Source of the DNA: Agrobacterium tumefaciens
GTDB taxonomy: Bacteria; Pseudomonadota; Alphaproteobacteria; Rhizobiales; Rhizobiaceae
Reading direction: 5' to 3'
Length of the DNA: 64,000 nt
Assembly (NCBI RefSeq): GCF_009649785.1
Contig: NZ_WJOK01000002.1
Span: 62,001 to 126,000 of the forward strand
The notes below the pieces were generated by a model. The model was not told the origin of the DNA, ran no database searches, and saw only the letters and a program-made list of their open reading frames with translations. Both the position numbers and the translations under genes were made by a program. Shown here piece by piece: positions 3,945 to 17,283 of the stretch (its first letter is position 1; each line of letters opens with the position of its first letter).

Positions 3945-4559
3945 TTAAATGTGGCGACGGCAGGCGCTCTGCTCCAGCACCTGCATGATGGTTTTGCCCG
4001 CATCTTCCATGGCACCGCTATTGTCCACGGTCGTCACATCAAAATCCCCGACGACCGTGAGCGAACTGCGTTCCAGCCGCCGGAGAATATCCTCCCGGCT
4101 TTCCCGCCCGCGCTGCTCCAGCCGCTTCGCCAGCACGTCCGGCCGTGCAACGATGTTCACGACCTTGAGGCGCGCAAAGGCGGTGCCGAACTGGGGCAGG
4201 GCCGAGCGGGAGCCGTTGGCGATGACCACGTCTCCCGCATTAAGATGACGATAGACGGCGGCCGGAATGCCATATTTCAGCCCGTGCGCCTGCCAGGAAA
4301 CGGCAAAAGCACCTTCCTCTTCCAGCCGGTTGAACTCGTGCATGGAAACCGCATCGTGATTTTCGCCGCCGGCATCGCCGCTGCGGGTAATGACCCGGCG
4401 TGTGAAATGGAAGCCCGGCCGCCCGAACAGCTGCGCTGCGGCATAATCCATCAGCGTGTCCTTGCCGGCCCCACTCGGGCCGACAATTACGATCATGGTT
4501 CCGGGCACCGTACCCAGCGTCTGGCCGTCAAGCCGGCTATCCTGTCCGTTGCCGGTCAT
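3945..4559 (-). CDS. phnN: Ribose 1,5-bisphosphate phosphokinase PhnN
   Basis: PhnN phosphorylates ribose 1,5-bisphosphate to PRPP, the last step that recovers the ribose carrier of the C-P lyase pathway. The protein is 204 residues with a guanylate-kinase-like fold and a P-loop GPSGAGKDT near residue 27. The segments HFTRRVITRS and EEGAFAVSWQAHGLKYGIP are typical of PhnN. Its ATG overlaps the phnM stop by four bases (ATGA), implying translational coupling. An internal ATG just before IVIVGPSG could also be the start; the longer form is chosen for the overlap. Confidence 0.9.
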   Translation of the reverse strand: MTGNGQDSRLDGQTLGTVPGTMIVIVGPSGAGKDTLMDYAAAQLFGRPGFHFTRRVITRSGDAGGENHDAVSMHEFNRLEEEGAFAVSWQAHGLKYGIPAAVYRHLNAGDVVIANGSRSALPQFGTAFARLKVVNIVARPDVLAKRLEQRGRESREDILRRLERSSLTVVGDFDVTTVDNSGAMEDAGKTIMQVLEQSACRRHI

Positions 4560-5692
4560 GCCACACGTTTGCCCTGACGCCAGACCGAGCGGGCGACGGG
4601 AACGCCGTCCTCACGGTGAACTCGGACCAGATCGGCCCGCAATCCCGTTGCGATGCTGCCGCGATCGCGAAGGCCCACCGTTCGTGCCGGCGTGGAGGTA
4701 ACCATGCGCAACGCTTCCGGCAGAGTGATGGCTTCCACCTGGTCGGCGAGCAGGAACGGTGCGTAAAGCAGGCTGAACGGCACATAGTCGGAAGAGAGAA
4801 CATCCAGCACGCCAAGTTCGGCAAGATCACGGGCGGCGATGTTGCCGGAATGGGACTTGCCGCGAACGATGTTCGGTGCGCCCATCAGCACGCTCATGCC
4901 GGCGCTGTGCGAAGCCTTTGCCGCCTCGACGCTGGTGGGGAACTCCGCGAGTTTCACGCCGTGTCCGATCGCTTCGCCCACATGCGCTTCTGTAGCGTCG
5001 TCATGGCTTGCAACGGTTATGCCGCGCTCGGCGCAACGGGCCGCCAGGTAATCCCGGTGCTTGGCGGAAAACTCCGCCGATGCCGTCTGCCGGCGTCTGA
5101 CGAACTCGGCGAAAGCCTCGTCGCTCAGTCCGCGCTTCTTCTGGTAATAGAAGATATATTGGTCCATCGACTGGAACTGGCGCTGTCCCGGGGAGTGGTC
5201 CATCATCGAAATCAGCCGCACACGCGGATCGGTCTCAAAATCTTCGAAATGCTCGAGCACATCGGCGGAGGCGACTTCACAGCGCAGGTGCAGCAGGTGA
5301 TCTGCCCGCAGGCGGTTCTGATCGGCAGCGGTTTCAATGGCATCTGCCATTTCCCGCATCTCGCCCTTCTTGAACCCGCCATCTTCGTCGGAGCCCAGCC
5401 GCAGGCAGTCGAAAACAGTGGTAATGCCTGATGACGCGACCTGCGCATCGTGAGCCTGAATTGCGGCGATCTTATCCCAGATAACCCCGGGACGCGGCGA
5501 ATAGTGCTGTTCCAGATGGTCGGTGTGCAGTTCCACCAGACCCGGGATGAGGAAATCGCCTTCGAGATCTTCACCGGTCTTGGAGGCGCCTTCGCTGATA
5601 TCGGCGATCTTGCCGTCACGGATCAGAACGGATCCCAGAATAATATCGTCTTCCAGAACGATACGGGCGTTGGAAAGGGCATGCTCGGTCAT
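4556..5692 (-). CDS. phnM: Alpha-D-ribose 1-methylphosphonate 5-triphosphate diphosphatase PhnM
   Basis: PhnM removes pyrophosphate from the 5-triphosphoribosyl phosphonate made by PhnGHIL, giving the substrate of PhnJ. 378 residues, amidohydrolase superfamily. The metal site motif LVELHTDHLEQHYSPRPG (about residues 52-69), DHSPGQRQF near 165 and SHDDATEAHV near 230 are characteristic of PhnM. It overlaps the DUF1045 gene upstream and phnN downstream by four bases each, forming a tight three-gene leftward unit. Length and motifs are normal for the family. Confidence 0.93.
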   Translation of the reverse strand: MTEHALSNARIVLEDDIILGSVLIRDGKIADISEGASKTGEDLEGDFLIPGLVELHTDHLEQHYSPRPGVIWDKIAAIQAHDAQVASSGITTVFDCLRLGSDEDGGFKKGEMREMADAIETAADQNRLRADHLLHLRCEVASADVLEHFEDFETDPRVRLISMMDHSPGQRQFQSMDQYIFYYQKKRGLSDEAFAEFVRRRQTASAEFSAKHRDYLAARCAERGITVASHDDATEAHVGEAIGHGVKLAEFPTSVEAAKASHSAGMSVLMGAPNIVRGKSHSGNIAARDLAELGVLDVLSSDYVPFSLLYAPFLLADQVEAITLPEALRMVTSTPARTVGLRDRGSIATGLRADLVRVHREDGVPVARSVWRQGKRVA

Positions 5693-6378
5693 GGGTCAGC
5701 ATCTTTCTTTGGCGGCTGGCCAAGCGGGTGCCAGCGATGAACGGTAAATGGTGCGCCGCGCGTTTCCTCAACGAACAAAGCGAGGCCGGAAATGGTGAGA
5801 GGCCGGTCGACGAACTCGGAAAACTTGGTCGAAAGCACATCCTGGATAGCGGGCGCGTCGCTTTCGTCGATGCGGCCCGTCAGCGTCATATGAAAGCGGA
5901 AGTCGTCCATGACATGCGGATAACCCCAGAGCGACAGATTTTGCCGCTGGCTTTCGGTCAGGTTTTGCGGGCGCCGGCGGGCAATGTCGGTCTCGGACAA
6001 GGGCGCGCGAAACCGGTCGAAATGGTCAACGATCTCAGCGGCAAAATCCTGCAGCGGCTGGTAGGTGCGATCCGGAACGAGCGCGAAAAACGGCCCGAGT
6101 GCGCCGATGACAACACGCGGAATATCGAAGACGGACTGGCTGGCCGCAAACTGTTCGAGGGCGGCGACGAGTTCCGCTTCGCTGTATTTTTCGGAAAGCT
6201 CGAAGGGGGCTTTCAGCGTCGCGTGGAAACCGTAACGGCGCGGCTCCTCCGTCATCTCCGCATAAGCGGCATGGTCATCATGTTGCGCGCCGGAAAAGGC
6301 ATTGCGTCCCAGCCAGCGCGACGCCGCTTCAGTCAGTGGATGATCTTTAGCCGGAGAAAAATAGATGGCGTAGCGCAC
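5689..6378 (-). CDS. DUF1045 family phosphonate-operon protein, predicted 2H phosphoesterase
   Basis: About 229 residues. Two H-x-[ST] motifs are visible, H-A-T in YGFHATLKAPFEL and H-M-T in FRFHMTLTGRID; paired motifs of this kind mark the 2H phosphoesterase superfamily, which acts on cyclic or 2'-5' phosphodiesters. The family (DUF1045, 'phosphonate metabolism protein') occurs in phn operons and I know of no assigned reaction. A GTG at 6378 is taken as the start because GAAGAG sits eight bases upstream and the protein then begins MRYAIYF; a GTG at 6387 is less well spaced. No phnP is present in the locus, so this is a candidate for the cyclic-phosphate opening step (inference). Confidence 0.85.
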   Translation of the reverse strand: MRYAIYFSPAKDHPLTEAASRWLGRNAFSGAQHDDHAAYAEMTEEPRRYGFHATLKAPFELSEKYSEAELVAALEQFAASQSVFDIPRVVIGALGPFFALVPDRTYQPLQDFAAEIVDHFDRFRAPLSETDIARRRPQNLTESQRQNLSLWGYPHVMDDFRFHMTLTGRIDESDAPAIQDVLSTKFSEFVDRPLTISGLALFVEETRGAPFTVHRWHPLGQPPKKDADP

Positions 6379-6653: not shown

Positions 6654-8003
6654 TTAATGCTGGGTTTTCCCGATCAGGCGCGACCGCAGGGAATTCGAGA
6701 TGTGGTCGAACAGGAAAACCACGAAGAGAATGAGCAGCACCATATAAGCGACCTTGTCCCAGTCGGCATTGGTACCCATCGCTTCCAGCAGTTTCAAACC
6801 GATGCCGCCAGCGCCAACCGCACCGATGATCGTGGCGGAACGGGTGTTGCTTTCCCAGAAATAAAGCGACTGGGAAATGAAGACCGGCAGGACCTGCGGA
6901 AGCACGCCGAAACGATTGACGGCAATGGGAGAAGCGCCAACCGATTTGACGCCCTCGCGCTGCTTGTCGTCAACATTCTCCAGCGCCTCGGCATAGACCT
7001 TGCCGAGCGCGCCGGTATCGGTGAAGAAGATCGCGGCAATGCCGGGGATCGGCCCCGGACCGAAGCTGCGCGTAAAGAACAGCGCCCAGATCAGCATGTC
7101 GATCGAGCGCAGGAAGTCGAACAGACGCTTCATGCCCCAGTTGGCGGCCCTGTTAGCGGTGATATTGCGTGCGGCGAGAAAAGCGAGCGGCAGGGCAACG
7201 AGCGTGCCGAACAGCGTGCCCACAAAGGCCATCACCAGCGTCTGCATCAGCTTGGAAAGAATATCGGCGTGCTGCCAGACACCATTGTCGAGGAAATCAT
7301 CGACCATGTGGCTGATATTGGAGCGCGTGGGATCGAGCCTTTCCCCCCACAGCGCCAGTGCGGCAAGGTCGCCGTAGCCCTTGCCCCAGAATTCCGATTT
7401 GGTATCGAACAGGAAGTTCGCCCATCCGAGGAACCGCCGCTGCACGTAAACCTGGCTGGTGCGGATTTCCGCCTGTCCGGCAAAACCGTAATGCACGAGA
7501 ACCTTGTTGCCGTCCTGCGTGATCTCTTGCGGCAGGACCTCAGGCGCCAGAGCCTTGTCGCCATCGATGATGACGGGATAGTTCTTGCCGTCCACATAGA
7601 CGTCCACCCGGGTCGGCGTTACGTCGAGACGGTTTTGCGTGCCCGCGTAAACGACGCTGTAGCCGCCATCCGGCAAGGGTTGCAGCCAGTCGATCGGCGC
7701 ATCGGCGGGATATTGCATCCGGCTTGACCACTGCGGGTTCACCTTGCCGTCTTCGAAACGAAGGCGTGGCTGGGCCCGCCAGGAATACCAGTCCTGAATG
7801 TAGCTCGAAGCGCGATCCCATCGACCCTGCATGAAAGCGGGGCCGACATTGAAGAAGAAAAAGCAGGCGGTGAGATAGACGAGGACGGCGACAATACCGG
7901 TCAGCAAGCCGTATCGCTGCATGAAGCCGCGATTGAAAATTGCGGGATGTGCGGCCGTCAGCCTCTCGCGGTCTGCGGTATTGAGAATGAAGCTGGACGA
8001 CAT
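6654..8003 (-). CDS. phnE: Phosphonate ABC transporter permease PhnE (second copy, enlarged)
   Basis: 449 residues, much longer than the usual 260-280 of PhnE. A first membrane helix (about 30-52, LLTGIVAVLVYLTACFFFF) is followed by about 180 hydrophilic residues predicted outside the membrane, then a normal permease domain with several helices and the EAA-type loop (EALENVDDKQREGVKSVGASP, then NTRSATIIGAVGAGGIG). It starts at an ATG that overlaps the stop of the first phnE by one base (TGATG), so the two permeases are coupled and probably form a heterodimer in the inner membrane. The role of the inserted domain is unknown. Confidence 0.9.
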   Translation of the reverse strand: MSSSFILNTADRERLTAAHPAIFNRGFMQRYGLLTGIVAVLVYLTACFFFFNVGPAFMQGRWDRASSYIQDWYSWRAQPRLRFEDGKVNPQWSSRMQYPADAPIDWLQPLPDGGYSVVYAGTQNRLDVTPTRVDVYVDGKNYPVIIDGDKALAPEVLPQEITQDGNKVLVHYGFAGQAEIRTSQVYVQRRFLGWANFLFDTKSEFWGKGYGDLAALALWGERLDPTRSNISHMVDDFLDNGVWQHADILSKLMQTLVMAFVGTLFGTLVALPLAFLAARNITANRAANWGMKRLFDFLRSIDMLIWALFFTRSFGPGPIPGIAAIFFTDTGALGKVYAEALENVDDKQREGVKSVGASPIAVNRFGVLPQVLPVFISQSLYFWESNTRSATIIGAVGAGGIGLKLLEAMGTNADWDKVAYMVLLILFVVFLFDHISNSLRSRLIGKTQH

Positions 8004-8989
8004 CAGGCCGCTCCCCGTCCGAATTCGAAGGATTGATGGCCGATCAGCCTGCGGCGCAACCAGCTTGAAAACTGGTCTACGGCGATGATGGTGATCAGCA
8101 GCAGGATGATGATGGCATAGGTCTTGGAGGCGTGATCGTTACCGATCGACAGCCGGAAGACCTCGCCAATGCCGCCACCACCAACGGCGCCGATGATGGT
8201 TGAGGCGCGTACGTTGATTTCGGCACGCAGCAATGCATAGGACACGAAATTGGGCAGGACCTGCGGCACGATGGCAAAGCGAACCCGCTCCAGCCAGTTG
8301 GCACCCGCGGCACGCAGGCCTTCATCCGCCTTCATGTCGGCATTTTCCACGACTTCGAAGAATAGCTTCCCCAGAGCCCCGATGGTGTGCACGGAAATCG
8401 CGATGATCGCCGCGATCGGCCCGATCGATAAGATGGCAGTCAGCAATCCCGCGACGACGATCTCCGGAAAGGCGCGCAGGATCTCCATTACCCGGCGTAC
8501 AACCCAGCGCACGAGGCCGGCACCGATAAGGTTGGTGGAGGCAAAGAAGCACAGCACAAATGCGAAGGTCGTGCCTATTATCGTCGAGACCAGCGCGATG
8601 TTGAGCGTGATGATCAGCTGATAGATGAAATGCGGTATGTAGAAACCGTTGGTGATGTAAACGCGATCCGCGACATAGTTGTATTTCAGCGAACCGTTGT
8701 CATAGGGCGACGGCAGGTCGAACATCGCCCGGAAGACCTCGAGCGGGCTATCCGGCACGAATGTTTTCATGAAGTCGAAAAAATATGGCAGGCGCTCGAA
8801 GAACTTGCCCGAATTGGCCTCATTGGCGAAATTCAGTGAGGCGGCAAGGACGATGAGGAAGATAACGAGCGACATAACGGTATAAATCCGCCGTGTCCTA
8901 AGCTGCCGTTGATAATGACGCATCACCGTTCGGGACGATGCGCTCAATCCCTCGGGCGTGAGGGTACCATGTTGCAGTGTGGTCGCCAT
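8003..8989 (-). CDS. phnE: Phosphonate ABC transporter permease PhnE (first copy)
   Basis: 328 residues, inner-membrane permease of the PhnCDE importer. One N-terminal helix near residue 45, then four or five more. The cytoplasmic EAA loop is FFEVVENADMKADEGLRAAGANWLERV, followed by INVRASTIIGAVGGGGIGE. The ATG at 8989 is chosen because AGGAAA lies a suitable distance upstream; an in-frame TTG at 9010 has no ribosome site. It follows phnD after a strong hairpin at 9011-9040 and overlaps the second phnE. Confidence 0.92.
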   Translation of the reverse strand: MATTLQHGTLTPEGLSASSRTVMRHYQRQLRTRRIYTVMSLVIFLIVLAASLNFANEANSGKFFERLPYFFDFMKTFVPDSPLEVFRAMFDLPSPYDNGSLKYNYVADRVYITNGFYIPHFIYQLIITLNIALVSTIIGTTFAFVLCFFASTNLIGAGLVRWVVRRVMEILRAFPEIVVAGLLTAILSIGPIAAIIAISVHTIGALGKLFFEVVENADMKADEGLRAAGANWLERVRFAIVPQVLPNFVSYALLRAEINVRASTIIGAVGGGGIGEVFRLSIGNDHASKTYAIIILLLITIIAVDQFSSWLRRRLIGHQSFEFGRGAA

Positions 8990-9010
8990 GCCGCTTTCCT
9001 TTATTGGCAA

Positions 9011-9058: not shown

Positions 9059-9964
9059 TCAGCCGCCGATAACGGACTTACGGGCGTCGATGATCGTCTG
9101 GTAGAAAGCCGGGTCGACCTTGATGTAGGCAGTGTTCTTGCCCTGGGTGTAACCCTGGAAGCAGGCGAGATCCTTCTTCGGCAGTTCCATGAAGAAGTCT
9201 TCGACCTTCTGCTTCATGCTGTCACCGATCTTGTTGGCAACGAGAAGCGGACCGTTCGGGATCAGCGGGGATTTCCAGACCTGAACGATATCGTCCATGT
9301 CGAGGTTGCCCTTCTTGACCATCTGGTGAAGGTTGCCGCCGGAGTAGCCTTCTTCCCACTTGCCGACGCCCGAACCGAATGTCGTGCCGACGTCGAACTT
9401 TTTGTCGAGAACGGCGAGAACGAGGTTCTCATGGCCGCCGCCGAAGCCGGTTTCGGAGAAATATTCCTTGACCGGAACGCCGGTTTCCTTCGGGATCGAT
9501 ACGTTCGGGACGAGGAAGCCCGAGGTGGAGTCAGGGTCGGCGAAGCCGATCTTCTTGCCCTTGGCGTCAGCCAGAGACTTGATGCCGCTGTCCTTGCGGG
9601 CAACCATGATCGTGTAGTAGCCGCTGGAACCGTCAGAGCCGGTATAGGTCAGGATCGGATCGACGGCCTTGGGATCGGCAATGGCGATCTTGGCGTAGGA
9701 AGAAGCGCCCATGGATGCAATGTCGATGGTGCCGCCGAGCAGGCCCTGGATAACGCCGTTATAGTCCGGCGACGGGAAAACCTGAACTTCGGAAACGCCG
9801 GTTGCAGCCTTGAGGCCATCCGCAACGCACTTCGTGTTGCGGATCTGGTCGGCTTCATTTTCCGAACCGTCGAGACCGATACGCAGGACCTTGACGTCCT
9901 GAGCCATGGCCGAACCGGCCAGAACGCCAAGGGCGACTGCCGAAAGAAGGATTTTCTTCAACAT
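9059..9964 (-). CDS. phnD: Phosphonate ABC transporter substrate-binding protein PhnD
   Basis: 301 residues with a signal peptide (MLKKILLSAVALGVLAGSAMAQ, cleavage after AMA). The body carries PhnD-family features: RIGLDGSENEADQIRN, FPSPDYNGVIQGLLGGTIDIASMGASSYAKI and TFGSGVGKWEEGY. It binds phosphonates in the periplasm and hands them to the two PhnE permeases. The ATG at 9964 gives a standard leader, so the open frame upstream is ignored. A strong hairpin lies between it and phnE, fitting the need for excess binding protein. Confidence 0.95.
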   Translation of the reverse strand: MLKKILLSAVALGVLAGSAMAQDVKVLRIGLDGSENEADQIRNTKCVADGLKAATGVSEVQVFPSPDYNGVIQGLLGGTIDIASMGASSYAKIAIADPKAVDPILTYTGSDGSSGYYTIMVARKDSGIKSLADAKGKKIGFADPDSTSGFLVPNVSIPKETGVPVKEYFSETGFGGGHENLVLAVLDKKFDVGTTFGSGVGKWEEGYSGGNLHQMVKKGNLDMDDIVQVWKSPLIPNGPLLVANKIGDSMKQKVEDFFMELPKKDLACFQGYTQGKNTAYIKVDPAFYQTIIDARKSVIGG

Positions 9965-10049: not shown

Positions 10050-10910
10050 TCAGAGCCCGGCGAGAGCCAGCGGTTCGGGACCGGCAGATTGCTGAACCGG
10101 ACGCGCGGCAAGCTGCGCGCCGGGAATATTGATGCTGGTCGAGGTCATGGTCTCGTCGATGCCGGCGCCGTGTGAATCCGTGCCGTAAATCTCCGTGACC
10201 GCCGCAGCCGTTAGTTCGGCGGGTGTTCCGTCGAAAACGACTCGACCCTGCGACATGCCGATAATGCGTTCGCAATAATTGCGCGCCGTATCCAGCGTAT
10301 GCAGATTGGTGATGACGGTGATGCCTTCACGCTCGTTGATGTCGCGCAGGGCGTCCATGACGATCTTGGCGTTCAGGGGATCGAGAGAGGCGATCGGCTC
10401 GTCGGCGAGAACCATCTTCGGAGACTGCATTAGTGCCCGGGCGATAGCGACGCGCTGCTGCTGGCCGCCGGAAAGCGTGCCCGCCGCCTGCATGGCTACG
10501 TGCTCGATGCCGAGCCGCTCGAGGGCGGCAATCGCCATCAGGCGCTCTTCATCCGTGAAAATGTTGAACAGGCTGAGCACGGTCGAACGGTGGTTCAGGC
10601 GGCCGAGCATGACATTGGTGAGCACGTCGAGACGCGGCACCAGATTGAACTGCTGGAAGATCATCGCGCAGTCGCGCTGCCAGTTGCGCAGGGCGGCACC
10701 CTTCAGCGAAGAGACTTCCGTGTCGTTGAAATGAATGGAACCCGAGGAGGGATCGACGAGGCGGTTGATCATGCGCAGCAGCGTTGACTTTCCTGCGCCA
10801 GAACGTCCAATCACGCCAACCATCTGGCCTTGCGGAATTTCCACATTCACGGAATCGACCGCAGTGTGGTTGCCGAAACGGCGCGTGACTTGCTTCAGGT
10901 GAAAGCTCAT
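10050..10910 (-). CDS. phnC: Phosphonate ABC transporter ATP-binding protein PhnC
   Basis: 286 residues. Walker [10 protein letters not shown] (about 35-43), the ABC signature [19 protein letters not shown], Walker [13 protein letters not shown] and the switch histidine in VITNLHTLD are all present. It powers uptake by PhnD-PhnE1-PhnE2. The ATG at 10910 is preferred over an in-frame TTG at 10922. The C-terminal tail of about 35 residues after TEIYGTDS is Ala/Pro-rich and less conserved. It heads the leftward phnCDE1E2 operon and has Pho-box-like repeats upstream at 10954-10986. Confidence 0.94.
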
Positions 10911-11147: not shown

Positions 11148-11765
11148 TTACCCGGCGTATTTCGCCACGAAATCCTCGGCGGCGAGGGTGCGGAAATCGT
11201 CCAGTGCGCCGCGCAGCGTTGCGTGGTCCCAGTCCCACCATTTGAGATCGTCCATGCGCTGGCCAAGGTCCGCCGGGAAGCGGTTCCTGATCAGCCGGGC
11301 GGGTACGCCGCCGACGATGGTATAGGGCGCAACGTCTTTCGACACGACCGCACCGGCCCCGATTACCGCACCGTTTCCGATTGTGACGCCAGGCAGGATG
11401 GTCGCGCCATGGCCGATCCAGACATCGTGGCCGATCACCACGCGCTTGGCGCGGCGGGCGGCGAAGAAGTCATTTTCATCATCGGCGTCGTCCCAATAAT
11501 TGCGGGCACGGTAGGTGAAATGGTGAAGCGTGGCGCGCGACATCGGATGATTGGTCGCGTTGATGCGGACGGATGCGGCGATGTTGACGAATTTGCCGAT
11601 GGTGGCGCACCAGATCGCACCGTCCTGCATGACATAGGAATAGTCGCCCATCTCCACTTCCTCGATGCGGCAGCGTTCCGAAATTTCGGTATAGCGGCCG
11701 ATCGATGAATTGGTGACGCGGGCACTTTCGTGGACAACCGGTTCGAGACCGACCTTCACACTCAT
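11148..11765 (-). CDS. Phosphonate-locus hexapeptide-repeat acyltransferase
   Basis: 205 residues, left-handed beta-helix acyltransferase of the chloramphenicol/xenobiotic acetyltransferase type. Hexapeptide repeats run through [41 protein letters not shown] and [15 protein letters not shown], with the HPMSR segment near residue 73. Members are found in phn clusters, where they may acetylate amino-phosphonates as PhnO does in E. coli with an unrelated fold; that role is inferred. Its ATG overlaps the phnL stop by four bases, so it is the last gene of the phnG-L operon. Confidence 0.85.
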
Positions 11766-12469
11766 GCCGCTGCCTTCCGGGGGGAGAATTGCGAGACATC
11801 CAGGACGCGATCGGCCACGGCTTCCCGCACTTCCTCGTCATGGAAAATACCGAGCAAGGCCGTCCCTTTGCGCTTCTTTTCCGCGACCATCTCCACGACC
11901 ACCCGTCGGTTGGCGGCATCCAGGGATGCGGTCGGTTCATCGAGAAGCAGGATCGCGTGATCGGTGATGAAACCGCGTGCGATGTTGACGCGCTGCTGCT
12001 CGCCGCCGGAAAAGGTTGCTGGCGGCAGCGACCACAATTCCCGCGGCAGGTTGAGTTTCGAAAGCAGAACGGCTGCCTGCTCGCGGGCCTCTTCCGCGGC
12101 AACCTTGCGCGCAAAAAGCGGCTCGGCGACGACGTCGATTGCCGGAACGCGCGGCACGGTGCGCAGAAACTGGCTGACATACCCGATGGTGCGATGGCGA
12201 ATCTCGAGGATGGTACGCGGCGAGGCGCTGCCCATGTCGATGACCTGATCCTCGTGGCGGATGAGGATCTGGCCGCTGTCGATGGCATAATTGCCATAGA
12301 GCATTTTCAGGATCGAGCTTTTGCCGATGCCGGATGGGCCGCCGAGCACGACACATTCTCCGCCGGACACGGAGAAACTGACATCGCGGACAACAGGCAG
12401 TTCGATGCCATCGCGAAGATGCATGGTGAAGCTTTTGAAGACTTCCGAAACGATAAGGGGTGTCGGCAT
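11762..12469 (-). CDS. phnL: C-P lyase subunit PhnL, ABC-type ATPase
   Basis: 235 residues. Walker [11 protein letters not shown], signature [15 protein letters not shown], Walker [13 protein letters not shown] and HDEE after the D-loop mark an ABC ATPase without membrane partner. PhnL works with PhnGHI to attach the phosphonate to the ribose of ATP. The start is the ATG at 12469 ([14 protein letters not shown]), five bases after phnK ends; the upstream in-frame extension overlaps phnK and is unlikely. Confidence 0.93.
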
Positions 12470-12473
12470 GGCG

Positions 12474-13250
12474 TCAAACCTGCAAAATGGAGGAAACAAG
12501 CAATTGCGTGTAGGGTTCGCGCGGATCATCCAGCACCCGGTCTGTCAGACCGTGTTCGATGACGTCACCTCCCTTCATCACCATCATGCGATGGGAAAGC
12601 AGCCGCGCGACCGCCAGATCATGGGTGACGACGATAACGGCGAGGCCGAGATCGTTGACGAGACCACGCACGAGATCGAGCAGGCGTGCCTGCACCGAGA
12701 CATCGAGGCCGCCGGTCGGTTCGTCCATGAAGACGAGGCGCGGTGAGGTCACCAGGTTGCGGGCAATCTGCAGACGCTGACGCATGCCGCCGGAAAAGGC
12801 GCGTGGCTGGTCGTCAATGCGGTCTGTGCCGATTTCTACCCGCTCCAGCCACTCGCTGGCTGATTGCCGGATATTGCCGTAATGCCGGTTACCGACAGCC
12901 ATAAGCCGCTCGCCGACATTGGCGCCGGCCGAAACCGCCATGCGCAGTCCATCCGCTGGGTTCTGGTGCACGAAACCCCAGTCTGTCCGCATCAGGAAAC
13001 GCCGTTCGGCCTCGCCCATATGATAGAGGTCTCGCACCGAGCCATCGCGCATGCGATATTCCACGCTGCCAGCCGTCGGCACGAGCCGTGTGGAAATGCA
13101 GTTGAGAAGCGTGGTCTTGCCGGAGCCGGATTCACCGACGATTGCCAGAACTTCGCCCGGATAAAGCTCGAAGGAGACGTTGCGGCAACCGGCGCGGTCG
13201 CCGTAATATTTCGAAACGTCCCTGACTTTCAGAAGCGGTGCGTCGCTCAT
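12474..13250 (-). CDS. phnK: C-P lyase subunit PhnK, ABC-type ATPase
   Basis: 258 residues. Walker [10 protein letters not shown] near residue 40, PhnK-typical GSVEYRMRDGSVRDLYHMGEAERRFLMRTDWGFVHQNP, signature FSGGMRQRLQIARNL, Walker B LVFMDEPTGGLD and the VVTHDLAV switch region. In the E. coli core complex PhnK docks on PhnJ. The ATG at 13250 overlaps the phnJ stop by four bases, which fixes the start. Confidence 0.94.
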   Translation of the reverse strand: MSDAPLLKVRDVSKYYGDRAGCRNVSFELYPGEVLAIVGESGSGKTTLLNCISTRLVPTAGSVEYRMRDGSVRDLYHMGEAERRFLMRTDWGFVHQNPADGLRMAVSAGANVGERLMAVGNRHYGNIRQSASEWLERVEIGTDRIDDQPRAFSGGMRQRLQIARNLVTSPRLVFMDEPTGGLDVSVQARLLDLVRGLVNDLGLAVIVVTHDLAVARLLSHRMMVMKGGDVIEHGLTDRVLDDPREPYTQLLVSSILQV

Positions 13251-14149
13251 TCTGCGGCCTCCTTCACATCCGCCAGCAAATGGCCCTTGTGGCCATGGGC
13301 GCGGCGGTCTTCGCAATGGTCGGTATCGGAGCAGACGAACATCCGCCCGCCCTTGTCGTCCAGCACCACCTCGTCCAGATAGACATTCTCCCCGCCGCAC
13401 ATCGCGCAGGGCTTGTCGAAGCTCTGGATTTCAAACGGATGGTCCTCGAAATCCAGGCTGACGACATCCGTGTAGGGTGGCACGGCATAGATGCGCTTTT
13501 CGCGCCCGGCCCCGAACAATTGCAGGGCGTCCGACAGGTGCATTTTCGGATTGTCGAACTTCGGGGTTGGCGAGGGGTCCATCACATAGCGCCCCGCAAC
13601 CTTCACCGGATAGGCATAGGTGGTGGAGATACGGCCGTTGCGGGCGATGTCCTCATAAAGCTTGACGTGCATCAGACCGTATTCCTCCAGCGCATGCATG
13701 ACGCGGGTTTCGGTCTCGCGCGGCTCGAGGAACCGCAAGGGTTCAGGAATGGGAACCTGATAGACAAGCACCTGCCCCGAATGCAGTTCTTCTTCGGGAA
13801 TGCGGTGCCGCGTCTGGATGATGGTTGCATCCTTGGTGCGTGTGGTGACGGCGACATCAGCGACTTTCTGGAAGAAGGCGCGGATGGAAACGGCGTTGGT
13901 GGTGTCGTCGGCGCCCTGGTCGATAACCTTCAGGACATCGTCTGGACCGAGGATGGCGGCGGTCACCTGCACGCCGCCGGTGCCCCAGCCGTAAGGCATG
14001 GGCATTTCACGGGAAGCGAAGGGAACCTGATAACCGGGAATGGCAATTGCCTTCAGGATCGCCCGGCGGATCATCCGCTTGGTCTGTTCGTCCAGATAGG
14101 CGAAGTTGTAGGCAGCCAGCCCGTCGTCGAATGAAACTTCTTTAAGCAT
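13247..14149 (-). CDS. phnJ: Carbon-phosphorus lyase core protein PhnJ (radical SAM)
   Basis: PhnJ cleaves the C-P bond using an Fe4S4 cluster and S-adenosylmethionine, producing an alkane and ribose cyclic phosphate. 300 residues. The PhnJ-specific cysteine set C-X2-C-X21-C-X5-C is intact at C248, C251, C273 and C279, as is the N-terminal SFDDGLAAYNFAYLDEQTKRMIRR block. The gene lies between phnI and phnK, but a 133-base gap separates it from phnI, and a small open frame on the opposite strand fills that gap. Confidence 0.97.
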   Translation of the reverse strand: MLKEVSFDDGLAAYNFAYLDEQTKRMIRRAILKAIAIPGYQVPFASREMPMPYGWGTGGVQVTAAILGPDDVLKVIDQGADDTTNAVSIRAFFQKVADVAVTTRTKDATIIQTRHRIPEEELHSGQVLVYQVPIPEPLRFLEPRETETRVMHALEEYGLMHVKLYEDIARNGRISTTYAYPVKVAGRYVMDPSPTPKFDNPKMHLSDALQLFGAGREKRIYAVPPYTDVVSLDFEDHPFEIQSFDKPCAMCGGENVYLDEVVLDDKGGRMFVCSDTDHCEDRRAHGHKGHLLADVKEAAE

Positions 14150-14282: not shown

Positions 14283-15392
14283 TTATTCGGCTGCATCGCT
14301 CATCCATTCCCCGGCATCGGTGTCGGTCGCGTCGAAATCGGCGCGCATTTTGCGCACCAAGCCCAGTTCGGCCTGAAAATCCACGTAGTGCGGCAATTTC
14401 AGATGTTCGACAAAGCCCGTCGCCTGCACATTGTCGGCGTGCGAGATGACGAATTCCTCGTCCTGCGCGGGGGCAACCACATCCTCACCGAATTCAGCGG
14501 CGCGTAGCGCACGGTCGACCAGTGACATGGCCATCGCCTTGCGCTCGCTCTGGCCGAACACCAGACCGTAACCGCGGGTGAATTGCGGAGGTGCCTTGGC
14601 AGAACCCTTGAACTGGTTGACCATCTGACATTCGGTGACCTTGATGTCGCCGAGCGAGACAGCAAAACCGAGCTCCGGCACATCCAGTTCGACCTCCACC
14701 TCGCCGATGCGGATTTCACCGACGAACGGGTGTGTGCGTCCGTAACCGCGCTGCGTCGAATAGGCGAGCGCCAGAAGAAAGCCCTCGTCGCCGCGTGCAA
14801 GCGATTGCAGGCGCAGGTCGCGCGCCATCGGAAACTCTATTGGTTCGCGTGTCAGATCGCCGGCAACGTGGTCATCCGGCATGTCGCCGTCACTTTCGAT
14901 CAAGCCTTCTTCGGCGAGAATGTCGGATACGCGCATGACGTATTCTGTCTCGCCCTCACGGATGGCAGGGATCTCGACAGCTCCGTTCTCCAGCAGCGAG
15001 GGATCGAGCAGGCGGTGGGTGTAATCGAAGGTCGGTCCCAGCAATTGCCCGCCCGGCAAATCCTTGTAGGTCGCCGAAACGCGCCGTTGGACCGTCATCT
15101 TCGCAGTATCCACGGGAACAGAGTAGCCGAAACGGGGCAGGGTCGTGCGGTAGGCGCGCAGCAGGAAAATCGCTTCTATCATGTCGCCGCGAGACTGCTT
15201 GACGGCAAGGGCGGCCAGCGACTGGTCGTAAAGCGAAGCCTCCGCCATGACCCGGTCAACGGCGAGCGAAAGCTGCGAAACGATCTGCGCCACCGTCATG
15301 GCGGGCAGGTCGCGGTCTCCGCGCCGCTTGTCTGCCAGAAGCCGGTGGGCGTTGGCGATGGCGGTTTCCCCGCCTTTGACAGCAACATACAT
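14283..15392 (-). CDS. phnI: C-P lyase subunit PhnI
   Basis: 369 residues. PhnI is the catalytic nucleosidase-like subunit that, with PhnG, H and L, displaces adenine from ATP by the phosphonate. Typical blocks are MYVAVKGGETAIANAHRLLADKRRGD at the N-terminus, SQLSLAVDRVMAEASLYD, YGRTHPFVGEIRIGEVEVE and the C-terminal LPHYVDFQAELGLVRKMR. It follows phnH after one base. The last residues are followed by the 133-base spacer before phnJ. Confidence 0.95.
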   Translation of the reverse strand: MYVAVKGGETAIANAHRLLADKRRGDRDLPAMTVAQIVSQLSLAVDRVMAEASLYDQSLAALAVKQSRGDMIEAIFLLRAYRTTLPRFGYSVPVDTAKMTVQRRVSATYKDLPGGQLLGPTFDYTHRLLDPSLLENGAVEIPAIREGETEYVMRVSDILAEEGLIESDGDMPDDHVAGDLTREPIEFPMARDLRLQSLARGDEGFLLALAYSTQRGYGRTHPFVGEIRIGEVEVELDVPELGFAVSLGDIKVTECQMVNQFKGSAKAPPQFTRGYGLVFGQSERKAMAMSLVDRALRAAEFGEDVVAPAQDEEFVISHADNVQATGFVEHLKLPHYVDFQAELGLVRKMRADFDATDTDAGEWMSDAAE

Positions 15393-15393
15393 C

Positions 15394-16002
15394 TTATGCC
15401 TCCACGGGTTGAATGCGCGTCGTGCGCGGCAGGCAGACGAATTTGTCGCCAGCGGTCAGGATGACGTCGATGCCGCGCGGGAAGATGGCGTTGTTTTCCG
15501 CCCATAGCCTCGGGAATATGTCCGGCAGGCCGGATGGGCTAATGATGTTGATATGGCGGATGCCGGGGCCGGACAGCAGCAGTTCCCGTCCGCCGTCAAG
15601 ATCGGGCAATTCAATGATGACCGTCGTGGAACGGTCGGGGTATTCCTGACTGCCCTGGGAAAAGAGACCGAAGGAGGCAATTGCGCTTCCCGCCTCAATG
15701 ACGGCGAAATGCGCCGCGCTTTTTTCCTCTGTTGTAACCGCCCCGGTGTGAAACCCGATCCATCCCGGCACCGTGGTTTTGCGTAGCGCGCCGCTCAGCC
15801 AGACCGGCGTGTCATGGTCGCAAAGTGCAAGAAGAACGGCGCCGCTGGCCGCACCAAGCGGCAGCGGCGGGGCAACTGTTGTTTCAATGGTTTGCGCTGT
15901 GCCTGGCCGGGCCATGCCGTCCATGAGCTTCTTGAAGATTCGCTGTGAATCGAAAACGGCGTCGGAAAAACCGCCCGTCAATGCTTCGGCTTTCACGCCC
16001 AT
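15394..16002 (-). CDS. phnH: C-P lyase subunit PhnH
   Basis: 202 residues. PhnH is a homodimeric pseudo-PLP-transferase fold subunit of the C-P lyase core complex. Family features include GGFSDAVFDSQRIFKKLMDGMARPGT near the N-terminus, LALCDHDTPVWLS, and GPGIRHINIISPSGLPDIFPRLWAENNAIFPRGIDVIL. The ATG at 16002 overlaps the phnG stop as TGATG; an in-frame TTG one codon upstream is not used. It lies one base before phnI. Confidence 0.94.
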   Translation of the reverse strand: MGVKAEALTGGFSDAVFDSQRIFKKLMDGMARPGTAQTIETTVAPPLPLGAASGAVLLALCDHDTPVWLSGALRKTTVPGWIGFHTGAVTTEEKSAAHFAVIEAGSAIASFGLFSQGSQEYPDRSTTVIIELPDLDGGRELLLSGPGIRHINIISPSGLPDIFPRLWAENNAIFPRGIDVILTAGDKFVCLPRTTRIQPVEA

Positions 16003-16463
16003 CAATCCTCTCCTCGAACCATGGTGAAGAAATCCACACGAGTTGCGGCTGTTTCTTTCGTTTTCCGATCTTTCTCCTCGGCCAGTCTTTTTTCGACCGG
16101 TGAAAGAAGCTCGGTCTCGATGAAGCCGCGTGTCGGGTTTTCCTGCCAGAGCGCATCGAAAACCGCAGCGTACCAGGCCTTCTTGCGACCGGTGCCGAGC
16201 ACATGCGCATGGCCGACGGTGCCGGATGCGAGCTTCACGGTTGCCCGGGTCACGGTGGTTTCGCCCAGATTAAAGGGCGCACCGCCGCCGCCGATACGGC
16301 CCTTGACCATCACGAGGCCGGTTTCAGGCCCCCGCACGTTTTCCGTCTGCGGGCTGGCATCCTGCCGGCTCCAGACGGCCTCAAGTTCCTGAACGGTGGC
16401 GCGGGCAAGAAGTGCTGCCACCCGTTTCCTTTCCGCATGTGAATTCGCAGCTTCGTTATTCAT
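16002..16463 (-). CDS. phnG: C-P lyase subunit PhnG
   Basis: 153 residues. PhnG is a small subunit of the PhnGHIJ core complex. Recognisable blocks are RVAALLARATVQELEAVW, the Gly-rich VKGRIGGGGAPFNLGETTVTRATVKL, GTVGHAHVLGTGRKKAWYAAVFDALWQ and RVDFFTMVRGED. The ATG at 16463 is chosen because AGAGG lies eight bases upstream; a further in-frame ATG at 16496 would put the palindromic operator candidate inside the coding region. It is the first gene of the leftward phnGHIJKL operon. Confidence 0.93.
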   Translation of the reverse strand: MNNEAANSHAERKRVAALLARATVQELEAVWSRQDASPQTENVRGPETGLVMVKGRIGGGGAPFNLGETTVTRATVKLASGTVGHAHVLGTGRKKAWYAAVFDALWQENPTRGFIETELLSPVEKRLAEEKDRKTKETAATRVDFFTMVRGED

Positions 16464-16525: not shown

Positions 16526-16547
16526 ATGAATGACAAGCGTGTGACAT
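16526..16547 (-). promoter_or_regulatory. Pho box between phnG and phnF
   Basis: On the minus strand the two adjacent 11-base units begin ATGTCAC and TTGTCAT, each matching the PhoB half-site CTGTCA(T/C) at 6 of 7 positions and in the required 11-base phase. The site is about 65-85 bases upstream of the phnG start and overlaps the ATG of phnF. It suggests phosphate-starvation control of the C-P lyase operon by PhoB. Confidence 0.65.
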
Positions 16548-17283
16548 GAGCCCTTCGGCAGCGATGAAAAGAAAGAACGGCGTGGCGCTCTGGCGACAGA
16601 TCGCCGACAGGATCAGGGGCGAGATCGCAGCGGGCGATCACGACGAAACCGGCATGTTGCCGCCAGAAATGACGCTGGCCGAAAAATTCGGCGTCAACCG
16701 CCATACCGTCAGGAGCGCCATTGCCGCGCTGGCAAGCGAAGGCATTCTCGAGGCGAGGCAGGGGCGCGGCACGATGATTGCGCGCAAGGAACGACTGAGC
16801 TTTCCGATTTCACTGCGCACACGGTTCACGGCCGGTATCAGCGATCAGGTGAAGGATATGCAGGCGCTGCTTCTTTCCCACACCACCGAGCCGGCAAATG
16901 CCGACCTGGCGGCACGGCTGCAATTGCAGCCGGGTGCACCGCTTGTGCGTCTGGAAACCCTGCGAAAGGCCGACAGCCGGCCGGTTTCGCGCTCGACCAC
17001 GTGGTTTCCGGCGGACCGTTTTTCAGGGATAGGGGATGCCTATCAAAAAAGTGGGTCGATCACCGCCGCCTTCGAAATGCTGGGCGTCGCGGATTATGTG
17101 CGCATCTCTACCGTCATTTCCGCGAGCCACGCTGATACGCAGGATCTGGCCGATCTCGAATTGGCGCCGGGCGCAATCCTGCTCGTCACCCAGGCGCTGA
17201 ACGCGGATATGGACGGCATTCCCGTGCAATATGCCATCAGCCGGTTCTCGGCAGATACGGTTGAGTTTACCGTGGAAAATTAA
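16546..17283 (+). CDS. phnF: PhnF, GntR/HutC-family regulator of phosphonate genes
   Basis: 245 residues. An N-terminal winged helix (VALWRQIADRIRGEIAAGDH, PPEMTLAEKFGVNRHTVRSAIAALASEGILEARQGRGTMIA) is followed by a UTRA ligand domain of the HutC type. It is divergent from phnG, the usual place for PhnF. The start is uncertain: the ATG at 16546 overlaps the Pho box and has no clear ribosome site, and an ATG at 16564 (MKRKNGVALW) is possible. It ends 22 bases from the convergent dapB. Confidence 0.9.
   Translation: MSPSAAMKRKNGVALWRQIADRIRGEIAAGDHDETGMLPPEMTLAEKFGVNRHTVRSAIAALASEGILEARQGRGTMIARKERLSFPISLRTRFTAGISDQVKDMQALLLSHTTEPANADLAARLQLQPGAPLVRLETLRKADSRPVSRSTTWFPADRFSGIGDAYQKSGSITAAFEMLGVADYVRISTVISASHADTQDLADLELAPGAILLVTQALNADMDGIPVQYAISRFSADTVEFTVEN

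Follow-up and report, generated by a model that had tools for sequence, protein, structure and literature searches.

The stretch of DNA analysed here, the window, spans 64,000 nucleotides of Agrobacterium tumefaciens (contig NZ_WJOK01000002.1, positions 62,001 to 126,000) and carries a carbon-phosphorus (C-P) lyase locus. The gene in question, at 5689-6378 on the minus strand, encodes a DUF1045 protein, which we propose with a probability of about 85% as the putative phosphoribosyl cyclic phosphodiesterase of this pathway, in place of PhnP. The genes occur in the order phnG-H-I-J-K-L-(hexapeptide transferase)-phnC-D-E-E-DUF1045-phnM-N, with phnF divergent:

5689..6378, minus strand: DUF1045/TIGR03223 2H phosphoesterase, proposed phosphoribosyl 1,2-cyclic phosphate phosphodiesterase (PhnP substitute), from the open reading frame (ORF), profile matches and predicted fold
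6217..6225, minus strand: first H-x-T motif, H52-A53-T54, with the position derived from the residue numbering
5884..5892, minus strand: second H-x-T motif, H163-M164-T165, with the position derived from the residue numbering
3945..4559, minus strand: phnN, ribose 1,5-bisphosphokinase (TIGR02322, 258 bits, cut-off 156), with a 4-base overlap with phnM (4556-4559)
4556..5692, minus strand: phnM (NCBIfam model), with an ATGA overlap with the DUF1045 gene
6654..8003, minus strand: phnE, second permease (NCBIfam model)
8003..9010, minus strand: phnE, first permease, ORF as listed with the true start uncertain (8006-8992 searched)
9059..9964, minus strand: phnD, phosphonate-binding protein, start codon picked by eye within a longer ORF
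10050..10910, minus strand: phnC, ATP-binding cassette ATPase, start codon picked by eye
11148..11765, minus strand: phn-associated hexapeptide-repeat transferase family TIGR03308 (349.8 bits, cut-off 201.65)
11762..12529, minus strand: phnL (NCBIfam model)
12474..13250, minus strand: phnK, start placed at an internal ATG of the ORF (12477-13238 searched)
13247..14149, minus strand: phnJ, C-P lyase radical enzyme (PF06007, 490.3 bits)
14283..15392, minus strand: phnI (Pfam model)
15394..16002, minus strand: phnH, start picked by eye (15397-15987 searched)
16002..16463, minus strand: phnG, start codon picked by eye
16546..17283, plus strand: phnF, divergent GntR/UTRA regulator (NCBIfam model)

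The ORF at 5689-6378 starts with GTG, with GAAGAG upstream, and encodes 229 amino acids. The protein matched PF06299 (DUF1045) at 208.5 bits (7e-62, gathering score 24.3) and TIGR03223, a "putative phosphonate metabolism protein", at 297.2 bits over a cut-off of 248.95. The gathering scores of two 2H families were also reached, namely 2_5_RNA_ligase2 (PF13563) with 33.3 bits versus 27, and LigT_PEase with 26.2 versus 23.3, the latter with no single stretch passing alone. An NCBIfam search at E 0.01 returned TIGR03223 only and not the PhnP model (TIGR03307). The two H-x-(S/T) motifs of the 2H superfamily are present as HAT and HMT, and the stop codon overlaps the phnM start in ATGA (5689-5692), thus confirming, together with the phnM/phnN overlap, the two motifs and the coupling to phnM and phnN described in the original prediction, which had been made from the sequence alone. 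The nearest named relative among the matches listed, from an A. tumefaciens metagenome-assembled genome, is 88% identical at the protein level, and the gene order from phnG to phnN is the same there among the genes mapped.

E. coli PhnP is a metal-dependent enzyme of the metallo-beta-lactamase fold. The NCBIfam cut-offs were exceeded by phnG, H, K, L, M, N and C, D, both E and F, and the Pfam gathering scores by phnJ and phnI, but PhnP was not found among the searched locus proteins; the family searches thus bore out the earlier description of a locus with phnG-N functions and no phnP. A phnP elsewhere in the genome, which the original prediction had proposed to look for, was not found in the whole assembly (5.67 Mb, 63 contigs, 100% complete), where the best match reached 23.2 bits, the cut-off being 272.25; PhnPs over the cut-off in other genomes scored 296-433 bits. 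The 23.2-bit match is a metallo-beta-lactamase-fold gene of this genome (G000 C61), located beside an ORF read by eye as TatD, and the surrounding 11 kb, as far as read, showed no phn genes. It was rejected as PhnP on both score and position. The window protein resembles E. coli PhnP in its proposed pathway step and in the position of its gene near phnN, but is not homologous and matches no PhnP model.

The distribution of the two proteins was surveyed in a first draw of 396 Pseudomonadota genomes, using E 1e-10 for DUF1045, E 1e-20 for PhnN and the model cut-off for PhnP. PhnJ was found in 108 genomes, DUF1045 in 91, PhnP in 27 and PhnN in 120. Among the 108 PhnJ-positive genomes, 80 had DUF1045 only, 26 PhnP only, none both and two (G513 and G516) neither. 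A second, alphaproteobacterial draw contained 42 PhnJ-positive genomes out of 241, of which eight were shared with the first draw; the other 34 were tested, returning DUF1045 in 33, PhnP over the cut-off in none and neither enzyme in one (G119, a 1.6-Mb genome). In total, the 142 PhnJ-positive genomes comprised 113 with DUF1045, 26 with PhnP, none with both and three with neither, so that exactly one of the two enzymes occurred in 139/142. Within the PhnJ-positive set of the first draw, PhnN accompanied 78 of the 80 DUF1045 genomes and all 26 PhnP genomes, and its presence with both enzymes fits a single common product, ribose 1,5-bisphosphate.

The genomic position of DUF1045 was read in 106 loci (104 fetched, the window and its paralogue). 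By their neighbours, which themselves define the label, 77 were phn-linked, and in 76 of the 106 a phnM or phnN match lay within 1.3-1.5 kb, midpoint to midpoint. The phnP match lay 5-554 bases from the phnN match in the 26 PhnJ-positive PhnP genomes; thus, two unrelated genes occupy similar places in the locus. No common neighbourhood was found for the 20 lone DUF1045 copies, as no neighbour family occurred in more than three. The 11 PhnJ-negative DUF1045 genomes had a copy by phnM and/or phnN in four cases (L065 in G321, L071 in G548, L073 in G467 and L064 in G585) and a lone copy only in seven. A further PhnJ, more distant than the others (379-397 bits, versus at least 450), was observed in G300, G375, G591, G483 and G015, with DUF1045 copies nearby in G300 and fragmentary copies nearby in G375; the latter (G375:C103) were left out of the fetched loci.

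Both catalytic histidines are present, as H-x-T followed by H-x-T/S, in all 77 phn-linked panel loci found by profile. This is the safer figure, since the 150/150 conservation counts are biased for H52 and T54 by 80 further loci, the best 80 of at least 595, which were found with a peptide pattern demanding the first H-x-T motif; close duplicates are present in the 186-row set (183 different sequences), which combines both samples. In each of four loci (L068, L085, L113 and L134), the region aligned by tblastn contained one stop, which was written as X in the alignment and skipped for the tree, while L167 was left out of A2 because of a stop.

Searches of PDB by sequence gave no significant relative of the window protein, and relatives were found only by fold search. 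The confident structure model predicts a 2H fold. The best match of known activity was the Arabidopsis cyclic phosphodiesterase (CPDase; PDB 1jh6, 1jh7, 1fsi), which hydrolyses a ribose 1,2-cyclic phosphate of the kind proposed here. It shares 14% identity, its chain has 181 residues instead of 229, and its substrate is a nucleotide, unlike the ribose 5-phosphate proposed for the window protein. Bacillus subtilis YjcG (PDB 2d4g), whose entry is titled putative 2'-5' RNA ligase, shares 17% identity.

What the data show directly are the gene, its neighbours, the lack of PhnP, the mutual exclusion, the predicted fold and the conserved residues; the reaction, its regiochemistry and the roles of the residues we infer as follows. 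PhnJ would release 5-phosphoribosyl 1,2-cyclic phosphate; the predicted 2H fold would place H52/T54 and H163/T165 in one pocket, where the two histidines might act as acid and base and the threonine hydroxyls hold the phosphate. Water would then attack the cyclic phosphate with the 2-oxygen leaving, yielding ribose 1,5-bisphosphate, which PhnN would convert to phosphoribosyl pyrophosphate. DUF1045 would thus be a non-homologous replacement of PhnP. The original prediction had likewise assigned this step to DUF1045, and the present data support it, as the comparative expectation held in 139 of the 142 genomes and the predicted fold and catalytic residues fit.

The same prediction had cautioned that the idea might already have been proposed, rightly so, since the replacement of PhnP by DUF1045/RcsF has already been put forward in print. 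In the parts available, Martinez 2013 (PMC3840354), referring to Huang 2005 for clusters that have the 2H protein RcsF and no phnP, proposed RcsF as the hydrolase of the cyclic phosphate; a 2023 review (PMC10574752) surveyed 54 operons, with phnP in 27 and rcsF in 16 phnP-less ones; and in an Aminobacter paper (PMC8235418), which refers to its reference 26 for this, DUF1045 is named as a putative phosphoribosyl cyclic phosphodiesterase. As far as these portions go, the RcsF/DUF1045 genes of the published C-P lyase operons share the neighbourhood and the proposed role with the window gene and do not differ in kind. The 142-genome count with its quantified exclusion, the structure model, whose fold matches that of an enzyme hydrolysing ribose 1,2-cyclic phosphate, and the diverged paralogue described below are additions, as far as the literature searched shows. 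The best functional evidence, though indirect for DUF1045, is the growth on methylphosphonate of E. coli lacking phnHIJKLMNOP with a Rhodobacteraceae fosmid containing a 2H gene but no phnP, as given in the available text of PMC3840354.

Several points weigh against the replacement. According to the same part of that paper, inserts in the fosmid library average 40 kb, so that the growth result does not single out the one gene; that its RcsF is the DUF1045 protein we infer from neighbourhood and 2H family; and the open-access literature gave proposals only, with no direct assay of DUF1045 on the cyclic phosphate found. Lineage is a serious confounder, as all 75 alphaproteobacteria among the 108 PhnJ-positive genomes have DUF1045 and none has PhnP; the mutual exclusion may therefore reflect few ancestral events, and given this structure the Fisher value of 5e-23 is not a true probability. 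The 33 non-alphaproteobacterial PhnJ-positive genomes comprised 26 with PhnP, five with DUF1045 and two with neither, and both kinds occur within one such family (f150). G513, G516 and G119, with neither enzyme at the thresholds used, must have another route for the cyclic phosphate. A third phosphodiesterase was sought in the phn clusters of G516 (L145) and G513 (L146), and no extra ORF was assigned between phnF-G and phnN, the flanking ORFs not being family-searched. In addition, PhnJ is absent from 11 of the 91 DUF1045 genomes; G019 (L080) and G030 (L134) have PhnJ and DUF1045 with no PhnN at E 1e-20; and in 9 of the 80 genomes with PhnJ and DUF1045 the only copies lack phnM, phnN or phnJ-type matches in the roughly 6-kb flanks fetched, although in one of them, G555, phnJ is on the same contig at a distance of about 8 kb. 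Metallo-beta-lactamase homologues of PhnP that stay below the cut-off, at 77-94 bits (E 1e-20 or better), were found in 4/80 and 6/33 of the genomes with PhnJ and DUF1045. The PhnJ-less genomes and the unlinked and lone copies suggest that DUF1045 may have further cyclic phosphates as substrates, or may persist where the operon has been lost.

Alternatively, DUF1045 might hydrolyse a pathway cyclic phosphate that is only a side product or shunt metabolite, such as dephosphorylated ribose 1,2-cyclic phosphate or the 2-phosphate isomer, and not be equivalent to PhnP. The lone copies in PhnJ-negative genomes (7/91 DUF1045 genomes) point to a broader choice of substrates, and 2H enzymes act on several cyclic phosphates in the part of PMC5283653 available. 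We consider this unlikely, as it would leave unexplained both the absence of PhnP from all 113 genomes with PhnJ and DUF1045 and the growth of E. coli with a phnP-less cluster. It is still less probable that the housekeeping metallo-beta-lactamase-fold hydrolase on C61 opens the cyclic phosphate while DUF1045 performs another step. On sequence alone a metallo-beta-lactamase enzyme may be compatible with the data, the C61 gene being the best PhnP-model match of its genome, even if at only 23 bits, and somewhat closer homologues existing in other alphaproteobacteria; yet its surroundings are devoid of phn genes as far as read, only 4 of the 21 first-draw genomes with a sub-cut-off PhnP match alone are PhnJ-positive, and the phnM/phnN neighbourhood of most DUF1045 loci would be left without explanation. 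Finally, DUF1045 might be a structural or regulatory C-P lyase subunit and not an enzyme, since a related clade with lost motif residues and low dN/dS (the ratio of nonsynonymous to synonymous substitution rates) indicates that non-catalytic DUF1045 proteins may exist; the histidines kept throughout the phn-linked panel make this hardly credible.

If DUF1045 does replace PhnP, a two-histidine hydrolase completes phosphonate breakdown in 113 of the 142 C-P lyase genomes sampled, a sample weighted towards alphaproteobacteria, and PhnP is the minority solution within it. A protein still filed as "unknown function" would gain a name, and surveys requiring phnP would score complete pathways as incomplete.

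The same genome carries a second DUF1045 gene, beside allantoin-pathway genes:

L010:9340-10044 (G000:C25:34363-35043), minus strand: second DUF1045, 233 bits, below the TIGR03223 cut-off

It adjoins the genes for PuuE, UraD and AllA, each over a model cut-off, and its second motif is QMS, the second catalytic histidine being replaced by glutamine. Between uraD and allA, a small ORF (L010:7004-7366, minus strand) showed a weak resemblance to HepT-like proteins, at 42.6 bits (cut-off 60). In a quick tree (LG+G4, no bootstrap), 16 ureide-linked loci formed one clade with a Shimodaira-Hasegawa-like approximate likelihood ratio (SH-aLRT) support of 99; ten rows came from the genome draw, including that of the window genome, and six from the best-80 set. 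The assignment was made by neighbours, with L049, whose contig ends before puuE, placed by hand.

The motifs of these 16 rows were intact in four, HGV/HMP in four, HGT/HMM in three, HGT/QMS in two, MG(I or L)/QMM in two and RAC/YLP in one. In 12 rows, therefore, one or more of the four motif residues had been lost, in five of those a histidine, and the loss affected 8 of the 10 rows found by profile alone; dN/dS between near pairs was low. Among phn-linked rows, 27 positions were fixed to at least 95%; 14 of them were fixed in all ureide rows as well and 13 varied. The varying positions include the following, with retention in 0 of 16 rows for A99, 4 for Y153, 4 for T165, 5 for R135, 7 for Y6, 9 for T54, 11 for F97, 11 for H163 and 13 for H52. 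Judged from these residues, the scaffold is retained and the active site is changing.

The sister of this clade is L200:10001-10696 (plus strand), a phn-linked DUF1045 gene followed by phnM and phnN and then by puuE, uraD and allA. We lean slightly towards a history in which the phn-operon gene gave rise, via such an arrangement (phnE2-DUF1045-phnM-phnN, then puuE-uraD-allA), to the allantoin-cluster paralogue of Rhizobiaceae, which then lost the pocket and afterwards the 2H motif residues in several branches with the fold under purifying selection. The product would be a conserved pseudo-phosphoesterase, which might bind a ligand or serve as a partner protein in ureide breakdown. If so, Y6, F97, A99, R135 and Y153, besides H52, T54, H163 and T165, would mark the substrate pocket of the phn enzyme, R135 being a guess for the residue that contacts the 5-phosphate, and the paralogue, a possible new pseudoenzyme, would provide a natural set of active-site losses pointing to the residues that matter.

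As for the rest of the window locus, a Pho-box search (CTGTCATN4CTGTCAT, up to 3 mismatches) returned 5 matches versus 3.6 expected by chance, a count that is not significant overall, and one of them (16530-16547) adjoins phnF/phnG. The TIGR03308 hexapeptide transferase at 11148-11765 (minus strand) was also matched in many other DUF1045/phn loci.
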